DNA of 64,000 nt from Salinicoccus carnicancri Crm. GTDB lineage: Bacteria > Bacillota > Bacilli > Staphylococcales > Salinicoccaceae. Location: assembly GCF_000330705.1 (NCBI RefSeq), contig NZ_ANAM01000001.1, forward strand, positions 310,001 to 374,000, written 5' to 3'. The position numbers and the translations under genes are program-made. Shown here in pieces: positions 3,604-8,049 of the stretch (positions are counted from its first letter, which is position 1; each line of letters opens with the position of its first letter). The notes below the pieces were generated by a model. The model was not told the DNA's origin and did not search any database. It saw only the letters and a list, made by a program, of their open reading frames with translations.

Positions 3604-3653
3604 ATGTCAAAAAGCGTTTCCCGGGAAATTTCCCGGGAAACGCTTTTTGACAT
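3604..3653. terminator. 50-bp perfect palindrome, bidirectional terminator
   Basis: Two 25-base arms are exact reverse complements with no spacer; the arms read ATGTCAAAAAGCGTTTCCCG and onward to GGGAAA at the centre. It sits between the convergent marR and mntR genes and touches the mntR stop codon. The arms carry A5/T5 runs on the outside, as in bidirectional intrinsic terminators. Confidence 0.85.
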
Positions 3654-4315
3654 CATATATGCTCGACGAACAAGTATTGGGCAATTGTCTGGCTGATCTG
3701 TATCTCCTTATCCGTGGTACCGTGATTCAAGGTGAGGAGGTCGAGGCCTGAATCCCTGCCGGTCACTGTGACCCGGTCCCCGATTTTGAGGTCATGGTTT
3801 TCAAAATATCGGAGCAGCCTGTCTTCATCAACAATACGGGAAATGCGAACCGGTACCCCGAGCACTGCTTCAGTCAGGTGCACTGTCATGTCTTCCTGCT
3901 CCTCCATCAAATCGGTGGATATGGCGCCTCCGTGCGGACAGTACTCCGGAAATTCCAGGTAGGCCTCCAGCCTGTCGGCGAGTTCGGCACTGGTAGAGTG
4001 TTCCAGAAGTTCCGCCTCAGGATGGACTTCATTGATGTTGAAGCCGAGATGTTTCACAAGGAACACTTCCCACAACCTGTGCTTGCGGATCAGTTTTTTT
4101 GCATAGTCGGTGCCCTCCTGGGTCAGCTTGCTCCCTTTGTACGGCGTATAAACCACCCATCCCGCTTTGACCAGGCTGTTCATCATTTCCGTCACGGTGG
4201 GCGGGGAGATGCTCAGCCGGTTGGCTATTTCCTTATTCGGCACCTGTTCGGTCCGGCCGCCGAGTTCAAACAGTATTTTTAAATAATCTTCCTTCGTTGG
4301 GCTCATGGGTCTCAC
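3653..4315 (-). CDS. mntR: DtxR-family manganese-responsive repressor MntR
   Basis: Metal-activated repressor of metal uptake. The 220 residues show an N-terminal winged helix (about 1-65, SPTKEDYLKILFELGG), a metal-binding and dimerisation domain (about 66-140, including HPEAELLEHSTS and CPHGG, typical ligand segments) and a C-terminal SH3/FeoA-like domain (about 150-220). This long form resembles staphylococcal MntR/SirR and not the 142-residue Bacillus MntR. It lies directly behind the mnt transporter operon on the same strand, 37 bases from the last permease, and may be read from the operon, giving autoregulation. Mn versus Fe selectivity is inferred from the context. Confidence 0.88.
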   Translation of the reverse strand: MRPMSPTKEDYLKILFELGGRTEQVPNKEIANRLSISPPTVTEMMNSLVKAGWVVYTPYKGSKLTQEGTDYAKKLIRKHRLWEVFLVKHLGFNINEVHPEAELLEHSTSAELADRLEAYLEFPEYCPHGGAISTDLMEEQEDMTVHLTEAVLGVPVRISRIVDEDRLLRYFENHDLKIGDRVTVTGRDSGLDLLTLNHGTTDKEIQISQTIAQYLFVEHI

Positions 4316-4352: not shown

Positions 4353-5444
4353 CTATATCGGCAATTCATATTTGCTCCGGGTGTAATGTGTGTATTCCTC
4401 GCCCCGTTCTGTAAGGGTGTACTGTCCATTCTTCTTTTCGATGTAGTCATTGATGAGCAGATGCTCCATATGATTATCGAACTGTTTTTGGTTCAGGTTG
4501 AAGTGGGATGTGATTTCGCCGGCTGTAAGACGCGTATGCCCGTGTTCATTCATGAGCATCAGTATCATCGCCCGGGTGAAGGTGCGCTTTTGCCTGAGTG
4601 CCCTGAGTTTGCCGTTTAGCCAGCCATCGGGACTGAATATGAACACTGCCATGAAAGTGACGAGCGCCGTAAATGAAGTGACACCGGCAATGGACAGGTC
4701 ATAGCTGAAACCGATTATATATCCGATCACACTGTTCCAGACTGCAAAAAGCATCGACAGCCAGATCATCGCACTGAGTCGCCTCACAAGCAGGTAGGCC
4801 GTGAGGGCGGGGGCCACGAAGAAGTTGATCACAAGTATGGAGCCGACCGCATCAAATGCAGCCACTGCAGTGACGGAAACGAGTGTCATGAGCGCGTAAT
4901 AGATTAAGGTGGCTGAAAAACCTGCGATGAACGCGAATTTCGGGTCAAAGGTCGTAAGCTTGAGCTCTTTATAGAACAGTGCGATGAAAGCAAAGTTCAC
5001 AAACATTATGATCGACAGCTGCCACAGGGCGGCGGGGATGCTGAAGCCGAAGACATCTATCCGGTTGAATGGTGCGAAGAGGACTTCCCCCATCAGGACA
5101 ACATCCATATCCAGGTGGGCGTTCCCCGAGTATTTGGAAATCAGTACGATGGCAGCTGCAAACAGTGCAGTGAAGACCAGACCGATGGCTGCATCCTGAC
5201 GCACCAGCTGCGTTCTTGAGACCAGTTCGATGATATAGACAGTGGCGATGCCGATGATGCTCGCTGCGATGATCAGCCATGGCGAGCGTATATCATTCGT
5301 CATGAAGAAGGCAAGGACGATGCCGAGCAGGATCGTATGGCTGATGGCGTCAGTTGTCATCGACAGCCCGCGGAGTACGAGGAATACACCGGGTACACTC
5401 GTGGCAAGTGCTGTCACGATGAGGACAAGCAGAACTTCAATCAT
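4353..5444 (-). CDS. mntC: Manganese ABC transporter permease with C-terminal winged-helix domain
   Basis: ABC-3 family membrane permease that moves Mn2+ (or Zn2+) delivered by the lipoprotein. Residues 1-280 hold about eight or nine membrane helices (start MIEVLLVLIVTALATSVPGV). Residues about 285-363 are soluble and look like a winged helix (TRAMILMLMNEHGHTRLTAG, then HFNLNQKQFDNHMEHL and a wing YTLTERGEEYTHY). Ordinary family members stop near 290 residues; Bacillus MntC and chlamydial YtgC also have extra C-terminal DNA-binding-like domains. The start overlaps the previous permease gene by 4 bases (ATGA), a sign of translational coupling. Whether the tail binds DNA is unknown. Confidence 0.88.
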   Translation of the reverse strand: MIEVLLVLIVTALATSVPGVFLVLRGLSMTTDAISHTILLGIVLAFFMTNDIRSPWLIIAASIIGIATVYIIELVSRTQLVRQDAAIGLVFTALFAAAIVLISKYSGNAHLDMDVVLMGEVLFAPFNRIDVFGFSIPAALWQLSIIMFVNFAFIALFYKELKLTTFDPKFAFIAGFSATLIYYALMTLVSVTAVAAFDAVGSILVINFFVAPALTAYLLVRRLSAMIWLSMLFAVWNSVIGYIIGFSYDLSIAGVTSFTALVTFMAVFIFSPDGWLNGKLRALRQKRTFTRAMILMLMNEHGHTRLTAGEITSHFNLNQKQFDNHMEHLLINDYIEKKNGQYTLTERGEEYTHYTRSKYELPI

Positions 5445-6319
5445 GATACACCACCCATTCTTCTTTTATATATGTTTCTCCTGATGATACCTTTCGGCGC
5501 GCAGAATAAAGAGAGTGCCATCAAGAAAGAGAGCGTAAGGATGATGGCGGGCCCCGTCGCTATGTTTTCCCCTGCGGTACTGATATATGTACCGGTAAAG
5601 GCGGCAAATGCACCTGAAGACCCGGCAATCAGAAGCACGGTGGAAAAACGGCTGGACCATAACTGTCCAATGACGGCCGGGGCGATCAGAAGGTTGACGA
5701 TAAGTATCGCCCCGACCGCCTTCAGACCGACTGAAATCAGCAGTATGGTGATGATGAGAATGATGAAATTCATCAGGGTGTTGTTGATTCCCGCCGTCCT
5801 GCTGAAGACGGGGTCGAATATATAGATTCTGATCTGTATATAGAATGCTGCGAGTATGAACAGGCTGATGACGGAGGCGGCAGTGATAAGGTAGACATCG
5901 CTTCTCAACATATAGGCAGCCTGTCCGAATATATAGTCATTGAGCCCCTGAGTACCTTCAAAATCCGGATTTCCCTGTACAAAACTCATAAGGGCCATGC
6001 CAAGTCCGAAAAATGACGAGAGGACCAGGGCGAGCGCACCATCCAGTGTGACCTTGGAATGATTCGTTATCATCTGGATGGTGAGGAAAGCGATGATGCC
6101 GAACAGGACAGCGCCAAGTGCCAGCGTATACGTTTCCTTTACGCCGATGAGCATGAATGCGAGTACTATGCCGGGGAAAGTGGCATGTCCGACGGCATCC
6201 CCTATCAGGCTCTGGCCTTTCATCACACTGATAGCCCCCACCATGCCGCCGGCGAATGCAAGGATCATTGTGCCTGCTGCGACAACGATGAACGTGAAGC
6301 TGGTCAGTACTTCCATCAT
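5441..6319 (-). CDS. mntD: Manganese ABC transporter permease
   Basis: Second ABC-3 family permease (292 residues, about eight membrane helices), pairing with the neighbouring permease to form the channel. It begins MMEVLTSFTFIVVAAGTMI and contains the family's GxxxxxxLIGDAVGHATFPG segment facing the metal path. It overlaps both neighbours by 4 bases (start inside the ATPase stop, stop inside the next start). No extra domain, unlike its partner. Mn as the substrate is inferred from the linked mntR and its boxes. Confidence 0.92.
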   Translation of the reverse strand: MMEVLTSFTFIVVAAGTMILAFAGGMVGAISVMKGQSLIGDAVGHATFPGIVLAFMLIGVKETYTLALGAVLFGIIAFLTIQMITNHSKVTLDGALALVLSSFFGLGMALMSFVQGNPDFEGTQGLNDYIFGQAAYMLRSDVYLITAASVISLFILAAFYIQIRIYIFDPVFSRTAGINNTLMNFIILIITILLISVGLKAVGAILIVNLLIAPAVIGQLWSSRFSTVLLIAGSSGAFAAFTGTYISTAGENIATGPAIILTLSFLMALSLFCAPKGIIRRNIYKRRMGGVS

Positions 6320-7041
6320 ACGCCGACGCCTTTCTCCCGGTAGGCTTTTTCTATGTTGTCCCCGGTGAATACTGCGTCTGTCGGGCCATCGGCAATGATG
6401 GTTTTGTTCATGATTACAACATGATCGAAATACTCCTTGACGGTGTTCAGCTGGTGATGGACGACGATGAATGTTTTGCCCTCCGCCTGCAGTTTTCTGA
6501 TGACGTCCATTATCAGATTTTCAGTGGTGATGTCAATGCCCTGGAGCGGCTCATCCATTACATATATATCTGCATCCTGTGCAATTGCGCGGGCAAGGAA
6601 TGCCCTCTGGCGCTGGCCGCCTGACAACTCTGAAATCTGCCGGTCGCAAAACGCCTCCATTTTCATGGTTTTCAATGCTTCCAGTGCAATATCCCTGTCC
6701 TTTTTTTGAGTGCGTTTGACCCAGCCCTTATGGACATACCGTCCCATCAGGACGACATCCAGCACCGTTGCCGGGAAGTCCCAGTTCACCTCCCCTTTCT
6801 GGGGAACATAGGCAATGTTCTTCAACACACCCTTGTCGGTGCGGCCGTCGATCTCAATACTTCCGGATACGGGGCGGATCAGTTTCATCATCGTCTTGAT
6901 CATCGTTGACTTGCCGGCACCGTTGGGTCCGACGATGGCGGTGCGGCTATTCTTTCTGATATCCAGATTGATGTGCCACAGGGCGGGTTTATCCTGATAT
7001 GCGACATTCAGGTCTTTGATTGTAATGATAGTGCCATCCAT
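6316..7041 (-). CDS. mntB: Manganese ABC transporter ATP-binding protein
   Basis: Cytoplasmic ATPase of the uptake system, 241 residues. Walker A GPNGAGKST at residues 38-46, Q-loop at YVPQKGEVNWDFP, signature LSGGQRQR at 139-146, Walker B YVMDEP at 160-165 and the switch histidine in VVHHQL. The segment GEVNWDFPATVLDVVLMGRY is typical of the metal-specific MntB/ZnuC/SitB group. GAGGAGG lies ahead of the ATG. It is 13 bases after the lipoprotein gene in the same operon. Confidence 0.93.
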   Translation of the reverse strand: MDGTIITIKDLNVAYQDKPALWHINLDIRKNSRTAIVGPNGAGKSTMIKTMMKLIRPVSGSIEIDGRTDKGVLKNIAYVPQKGEVNWDFPATVLDVVLMGRYVHKGWVKRTQKKDRDIALEALKTMKMEAFCDRQISELSGGQRQRAFLARAIAQDADIYVMDEPLQGIDITTENLIMDVIRKLQAEGKTFIVVHHQLNTVKEYFDHVVIMNKTIIADGPTDAVFTGDNIEKAYREKGVGV

Positions 7042-7054
7042 TTTCAGGACCTCC

Positions 7055-7981
7055 TCATTTCAGGTTTTCTACGATCGTGTCGATATTGTGCCGGTACATG
7101 CCGATATAAGTGTCCCCGGGCTCTCCCGCTTCTCCGAGGGAATCGGAGTAGAGTGCCTCGTCGGCACTGCCGATGACATTCACCGTACCGCCCCGGGTCG
7201 AAACGATCTCCTCAAGCCGCCGCATCTGATCGGGGTTGGTCGTCGTTTCCACGAATACAGATTTGACATCACGTTCCATGATGATGTCCGCGGTCATGCT
7301 GATCGTGTTATTGGATACTTCTGATGCAGTGGAAAAGCCCTGGGGTGCATGCACATCCAGGTCATATGAAGCGCTCAGATATCCGAATGCATCGTGCGGT
7401 GTAATCAGAATCCTGGATTCGGCGGGGACTTCAGAGAGTCGCTCCCGGACATAGGACTCCAGCTCGTCGAGTTCTCTGAAGTATGCTTCCATATTGGCCT
7501 GGAATTTCTCTTCGTGGTCGGGCGACGCTTTGGAAAGTTCCGTTTTGACAATTGTCATCGCCTCCTTGTAAAGTTCGATGTTGAACCAGAAATGGGGATC
7601 CGTCTCCCCTTCCTCTTCAGTTTCAAGAGAGGCGCTGTCAAAGCTCTCGGCAACGGGGATGCCGTCTGTCAGTACATCAGCCATGCGTCCTTCGAAGTTG
7701 AGCCCCTGATAGAATAGAATATCCGACTCCAAAATCGTTGTCAGATTGCTCGCCTTCGGCTGATAGGTATGTGGATCGACGCCTGCGGGTATGATCAGTT
7801 CGGTGTCGAAGGCATCGGCACCTTCATCCAGAACTTCCACCATATCCAGAAGGAATGTCGTCGTAACCGCGACATCCTGCCTTTTGTCGTCGGTGGCGGA
7901 CTCATCTCCGCCGTTTCCCGAGCACCCGGCGGCTGTGACCATGAATATCATCATGATGGAGAATAGTGCGGTCTTTTTCAT
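7055..7981 (-). CDS. mntA: Metal-binding lipoprotein, manganese ABC transporter
   Basis: Cluster A-1 solute-binding protein, 308 residues, anchored by a lipid at Cys20 (lipobox TAAGC). The metal site residues appear as His71 (AGVDPHTYQP), His130 (DPHFWFN), His196 (ITPHDAFGY) and Asp280; this His-His-His-Asp set matches TroA-like Mn/Zn binders more than PsaA, which has Glu at the third place. Mn is favoured because the operon carries mntR. It is the first gene of the operon, behind a promoter covered by two MntR-like boxes. Zn as substrate cannot be excluded. Confidence 0.92.
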   Translation of the reverse strand: MKKTALFSIMMIFMVTAAGCSGNGGDESATDDKRQDVAVTTTFLLDMVEVLDEGADAFDTELIIPAGVDPHTYQPKASNLTTILESDILFYQGLNFEGRMADVLTDGIPVAESFDSASLETEEEGETDPHFWFNIELYKEAMTIVKTELSKASPDHEEKFQANMEAYFRELDELESYVRERLSEVPAESRILITPHDAFGYLSASYDLDVHAPQGFSTASEVSNNTISMTADIIMERDVKSVFVETTTNPDQMRRLEEIVSTRGGTVNVIGSADEALYSDSLGEAGEPGDTYIGMYRHNIDTIVENLK

Positions 7982-8009: not shown

Positions 8010-8049
8010 ATTTAGGTTACCCTAATATATAAATTTAGTCAACCCAAAT
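8010..8049 (-). promoter_or_regulatory. mnt promoter with two MntR/DtxR-like boxes
   Basis: Read on the minus strand there is TTGACT, 17 bases, then TAACCT, upstream of mntA. Two inverted repeats of DtxR-family style cover it: TTTGGGTTGACTAAA (8034-8048) over the -35 and ATTAGGGTAACCTAAAT (8010-8026) over the -10. This layout predicts repression by metal-loaded MntR. The box assignment is by resemblance to TTAGGTTAGCCTAA-type sites. Confidence 0.72.

Follow-up and report, generated by a model that had tools for sequence, protein, structure and literature searches.

Among the permease-repressor fusions described to date, the chlamydial permease YtgC carries the repressor YtgR, which has conserved DtxR metal-coordinating residues and is released by cleavage (PMC5599777, PMC7755916, PMC6504234). 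Orthologous metal permease-regulator fusions have been reported from 11 phyla, and the usual interpretation of such fusions follows Chlamydia, where the repressor is cleaved off (PMC5599777). Our search of the literature found no paper on the fusion analysed here, in which a permease of Salinicoccus ends in a winged-helix domain.

Within the window (the whole 64,000-nucleotide stretch of Salinicoccus carnicancri Crm DNA that was analysed), the fusion is encoded by a minus-strand operon of five genes, in the order lipoprotein, ATPase, first permease, tailed second permease and MntR (Table 1). Its ABC-3 domain and its operon with a ZnuA-type binding protein and an ATPase place it among the ABC-3 metal permeases, and homologues in S. 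sediminis and S. halodurans show 97% and 87% identity, respectively. As the initial annotation had noted, it is about 70 residues longer than its partner permease (363 vs. 292 amino acids, a difference of 71) and a separate MntR is also present. The gene of the latter lies 37 bp downstream of the tailed permease gene in the same direction, and its product combines the Pfam domains Fe_dep_repress, Fe_dep_repr_C and FeoA. A long inverted repeat (gcgtttcccgggaaatttcccgggaaacgc) at 3605-3655, between a MarR-like gene and mntR, is probably a terminator for both strands. In one relative, the binding-lipoprotein gene is split over two frames of 123 and 212 amino acids (L097:6951-7997), possibly by a frameshift or a sequencing error.

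Table 1. Features of the manganese importer locus; positions are those of the window and residues those of the tailed permease.
Feature	Position	Strand	Basis
MntR/SirR-type DtxR-family regulator, 220 aa	3653..4315	-	ORF, Pfam
Tailed ABC-3 permease, second permease of the operon (MntD clade), 363 aa	4353..5444	-	ORF, Pfam, tree
Permease domain, residues 1-270	4635..5444	-	Pfam ABC-3, E 4.6e-41
Helix 275-299, basic juxtamembrane stretch into winged-helix helix 1	4548..4622	-	AF2, charges
Winged-helix tail, residues 281-359	4368..4604	-	Pfam HTH_45, AF2, fold search
Recognition helix, residues 319-331	4452..4490	-	AF2 model, conservation
C-terminal helix, residues 346-359 (ERGEEYTHYTRSKY)	4368..4409	-	AF2 model, conservation
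First permease (MntC clade), 292 aa, without tail	5441..6319	-	ORF, Pfam, tree
Transporter ATPase	6316..7041	-	Pfam
Metal-binding lipoprotein (ZnuA family)	7055..7981	-	Pfam
Operator (TTTAGGTTACCCTAA), upstream of the operon	8011..8025	+	Box comparison across relatives, genome search

That the additional residues form a winged helix, as first annotated, was borne out by profile and structural comparisons. With the full-length protein, the Pfam HTH_45 model matched residues 305-351 (E 1.8e-6, 28.3 bits, above the curated cut-off of 25.5 bits), and with the tail alone it returned an E-value of 1.1e-7; a match to the NCBIfam Sso10a chromatin protein stayed below its cut-off. An AF2 model of the tail alone (84 residues, seven aligned sequences) reached a pLDDT of 89.8 and a pTM of 0.81, with the elements, in tail numbering, H2-20, E26-28, H29-36, H40-52, E56-59, E62-65 and H67-79. 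The full-length model, built from a 7-row alignment, has a mean pLDDT of 48.9 and a poor membrane part, so that only its tail is usable; there, residues 281-350 are predicted at pLDDT 71-88 in the same order, H-E-H-H-E-E-H. Fold searches with VIA-align placed the tail nearest to CggR (Z 12.6), the MarR and PadR families and an Escherichia coli DtxR-like protein (Z 11.3), all within Z 11-12.6. Pfam, AF2 and the structure matches thus agree on a winged helix-turn-helix of the H-H-H-wing type.

In the AF2 model, helix 275-299 enters the first helix of the winged helix without a linker, at modest confidence before residue 281. The juxtamembrane residues 274-287 carry a net charge of +4 to +7 in all 16 genomes that encode the tailed protein. 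Under the positive-inside rule positive charge marks the cytoplasmic side, and this charge therefore fits a cytoplasmic position, where the tail would lie. The chain stops right after the post-wing helix, and a search of the tail for Fe_dep_repress and Fe_dep_repr_C gave no match at E-values up to 10; judged by these profiles, the tail is devoid of the metal-binding and dimerisation domain of DtxR. Residues E300, H303, H314, E350 and H353, some of them absent from the divergent tail of genome G001, are conserved in the tail and may constitute a metal site. A free tail produced from an internal translation start was considered and rejected, as no ribosome-binding site is visible upstream of the in-frame ATGs at residues 293-326.

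The tailed protein is found end to end in 16 of the 33 genomes of the family, 10 of the same genus and six of genus g4, that is, in every genome of these two genera that retains the operon. G001 encodes a related protein of 366 amino acids with a divergent tail, which scores 23 bits against a profile built from the other 16 tails. In most genomes of genus g3, and in genome G018, the orthologue has 283-291 amino acids and ends where the permease does. Outside the family, among the 299 genomes of the class and 199 of the phylum that were sampled, no strong match extends into the tail (the aligned part of the model ends no later than residue 299), and a search of the 299 class genomes for other proteins with this tail gave only weak matches, at E 6e-5 or worse, to regions resembling a winged helix. 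The tail is not essential, since it is missing in family members with a presumably working transporter. Two genomes of the same genus are without the operon. In one of them, G032, a deletion has removed the manganese operon together with its operator, and what remains is mntR, the final 36 tail codons and fragments of the permease and lipoprotein genes (L042:7880-8140); the idea that G032 retained the tail on its own was therefore dropped. Near relatives with a complete locus retain MntR beside the transporter genes. In a genome from another family of the order (G033, L103), both permeases branch from inside the clade formed by the window's family, close to those of genus g3, which suggests horizontal transfer of the operon.

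The initial annotation likened the fusion to Bacillus MntC, and the likeness holds for the fused winged helix and fails for orthology. A tree of 94 permease domains, which did not include the chlamydial YtgC, clearly separates first from second permeases (SH-aLRT 100), and the tailed permease falls in the second-permease (MntD) clade rather than with MntC. In Bacillus-type genomes, of which we take Bacillus subtilis MntC to be the named example, the extension is on the first permease (420-476 amino acids for the whole protein), and the second permease has about 290 amino acids. With hhalign, the Bacillus-type tails matched MntR over 122 columns (probability 97.4), from which we regard their likeness to DtxR as extending through the helical part. 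The Salinicoccus tails are shorter: they matched the Bacillus-type tails over 70 columns (probability 95.7) and MntR over 51 columns (probability 88-90). The tail may stem from mntR, from an MntC tail or from another winged helix, the similarity between the profiles being of a generic level only. Judging from the tree, the relationship to Bacillus MntC is one of parallelism, not of orthology.

The pattern of conservation within the tail bears on whether it reads DNA. Across the 16 genomes, the recognition helix shows 37% mean pairwise identity with one of its 13 positions invariant; it is the least conserved stretch of 13 residues in the protein, none of the 346 stretches compared being lower. 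It thus falls short of the conserved recognition helix of DNA-binding regulators of the MarR, PadR, CggR or DtxR kind. In the same genomes, the recognition helix of MntR has 96% identity and 11 of 13 invariant positions. Helix 1 of the tail has 74% mean identity, and the C-terminal helix has 80%, with eight of its 14 positions invariant, including the polar residues T352, H353, Y354, R356, K358 and Y359. In winged-helix folds, helix 1 and the C-terminal helix are protein-contact faces. In the pairs for which dS could be measured, the entire domain has a dN/dS of 0.03-0.32, which indicates purifying selection; given this and its occurrence in 16 genomes, the tail is neither a chance extension nor simply decaying. 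Its dN is roughly double the value for the permease domain. Fifteen Bacillus-type MntC tails follow a comparable pattern, with H2 (16%) and H3 (22%) least conserved and the post-wing helix (45%) most conserved, whereas in representatives of MntR the recognition helix H3 (67%) is the best conserved region. Aligned with the others, two Bacillus-type tails (L094:3277-4566 and L118:2950-4224) lack some of the helix-turn-helix and keep the post-wing helix, which would be in line with a loss of DNA reading.

The operator is the sole near-exact copy of its sequence in the genome and likely overlaps the -10 region of a promoter with a TTGACT element. Box and upstream TTGACT are alike in front of the operon in tailed and tailless (L106, L107) relatives, and related boxes precede more distant tailless operons (L084, L085). 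With the same box present in tailless relatives and MntR kept beside the transporter genes, there is no need for the tail to bind it, and MntR would account for the operator; binding of this box by the tail was rejected as the main reading. The initial proposal of a second regulator reading positions 8010-8049 is accordingly disfavoured, given also the poor conservation of the tail's recognition helix against the near-invariant one of MntR.

We favour, with about as much doubt as confidence, the reading that the tail is a winged-helix docking or regulatory module that does not read DNA, stays on the importer and acts by protein contacts. Transcription of the operon would be left to the separate MntR at its operator. 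The last membrane helix would pass via the basic helix straight into the first helix of the winged helix; this helix and the C-terminal helix, both conserved, would dock on a partner, the candidates being the ATPase or permease of the same transporter, another tail, a second transporter and MntR; and the docked tail would tune or stabilise transport. As the transporter has two different permeases, each complex would bear one tail. That protein contact is the function of the tail is what we infer, and several points weigh against it: the conserved residues of helix 1 may partly reflect the hydrophobic core, the variable recognition helix could mean a different DNA site in each species, and non-specific DNA binding is possible without a conserved recognition helix. 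The earlier suggestion that the tail senses the state of the transporter may hold, and is close to the favoured reading. In a bolder form, which we consider quite unlikely, the permease-borne winged helix would hold MntR at the membrane, or bind the ATPase, depending on the transport state, and would have arisen separately on both permease subunits of the manganese importers of Bacilli. If true, this would make it a transport-coupled sensor, a former DNA-binding fold turned into a protein-docking module.

The fold neighbours CggR, MarR and PadR are DNA-binding domains, and together with the sub-cut-off Sso10a match they lend some plausibility to a membrane-tethered regulator that binds other, lineage-specific sites or DNA in general; a fast-changing recognition helix would suit such shifting targets. 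Nevertheless, the tail is not basic, with a net charge of -1 in the window protein and of -4 to -10 in five of the six g4 genomes, where the recognition helix is acidic, and a heterodimeric transporter would present only a single tail. Charge is weak evidence, because the winged helix of MntR is also neutral to acidic in g4 genomes, and on balance we hold a tethered regulator to be unlikely. An extension that stabilises the fold and has no regulatory role would agree with the tailless orthologues in the same family and with the raised dN of the tail, but it sits poorly with the retention of the tail wherever the two genera keep the operon and with the invariant polar residues of the C-terminal helix, and seems to us rather doubtful. 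Release by a protease, after which the tail would repress the operon as a free protein, appears improbable. It would have a precedent in YtgR, which is cut from YtgC and represses (PMC5599777, PMC7755916), and here too the winged helix is fused to a permease of the same family. However, YtgR has about 139 amino acids with conserved DtxR metal ligands (PMC6504234, PMC5599777), whereas the Salinicoccus tail has about 80 and stops short of the metal-binding and dimerisation domain; its degenerate recognition helix, the conserved separate MntR and the operator retained in tailless relatives also speak against such a repressor.

The DNA-reading helix ranks with the most variable parts both in the Salinicoccaceae tails and in those on Bacillus-type MntC, and in both the scaffold is kept, which suggests that many such tails are parts of the transporter rather than repressors. 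The likeness to YtgCR drawn in the initial annotation extends to the permease-repressor type of fusion, in which an ABC-3-type metal permease encoded in a metal importer operon ends in a winged-helix domain resembling those of regulators, and does not extend to a complete DtxR-like repressor with metal ligands. YtgR is DtxR-like with such ligands, is cleaved, and is the only known iron regulator in Chlamydia; the Salinicoccus tail is truncated, without the metal-binding and dimerisation domain and with a degenerate recognition helix, and has a separate MntR beside it. With MntR/SirR the tail weakly shares the winged-helix N-terminal domain, but it is without both the metal-binding/dimerisation domain and the FeoA/SH3 domain, and its recognition helix is not conserved. 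With Bacillus-type MntC it shares the two-permease manganese importer, the fused winged helix and the variable DNA-reading helix, whereas the tail of the latter is on the other permease clade, is about twice as long (140-165 amino acids) and has a DtxR-like helical part. The Salinicoccus fusion differs from the known fusions in the subunit that bears the tail, in its length, in the missing metal-binding domain and in the lost conservation of the recognition helix.
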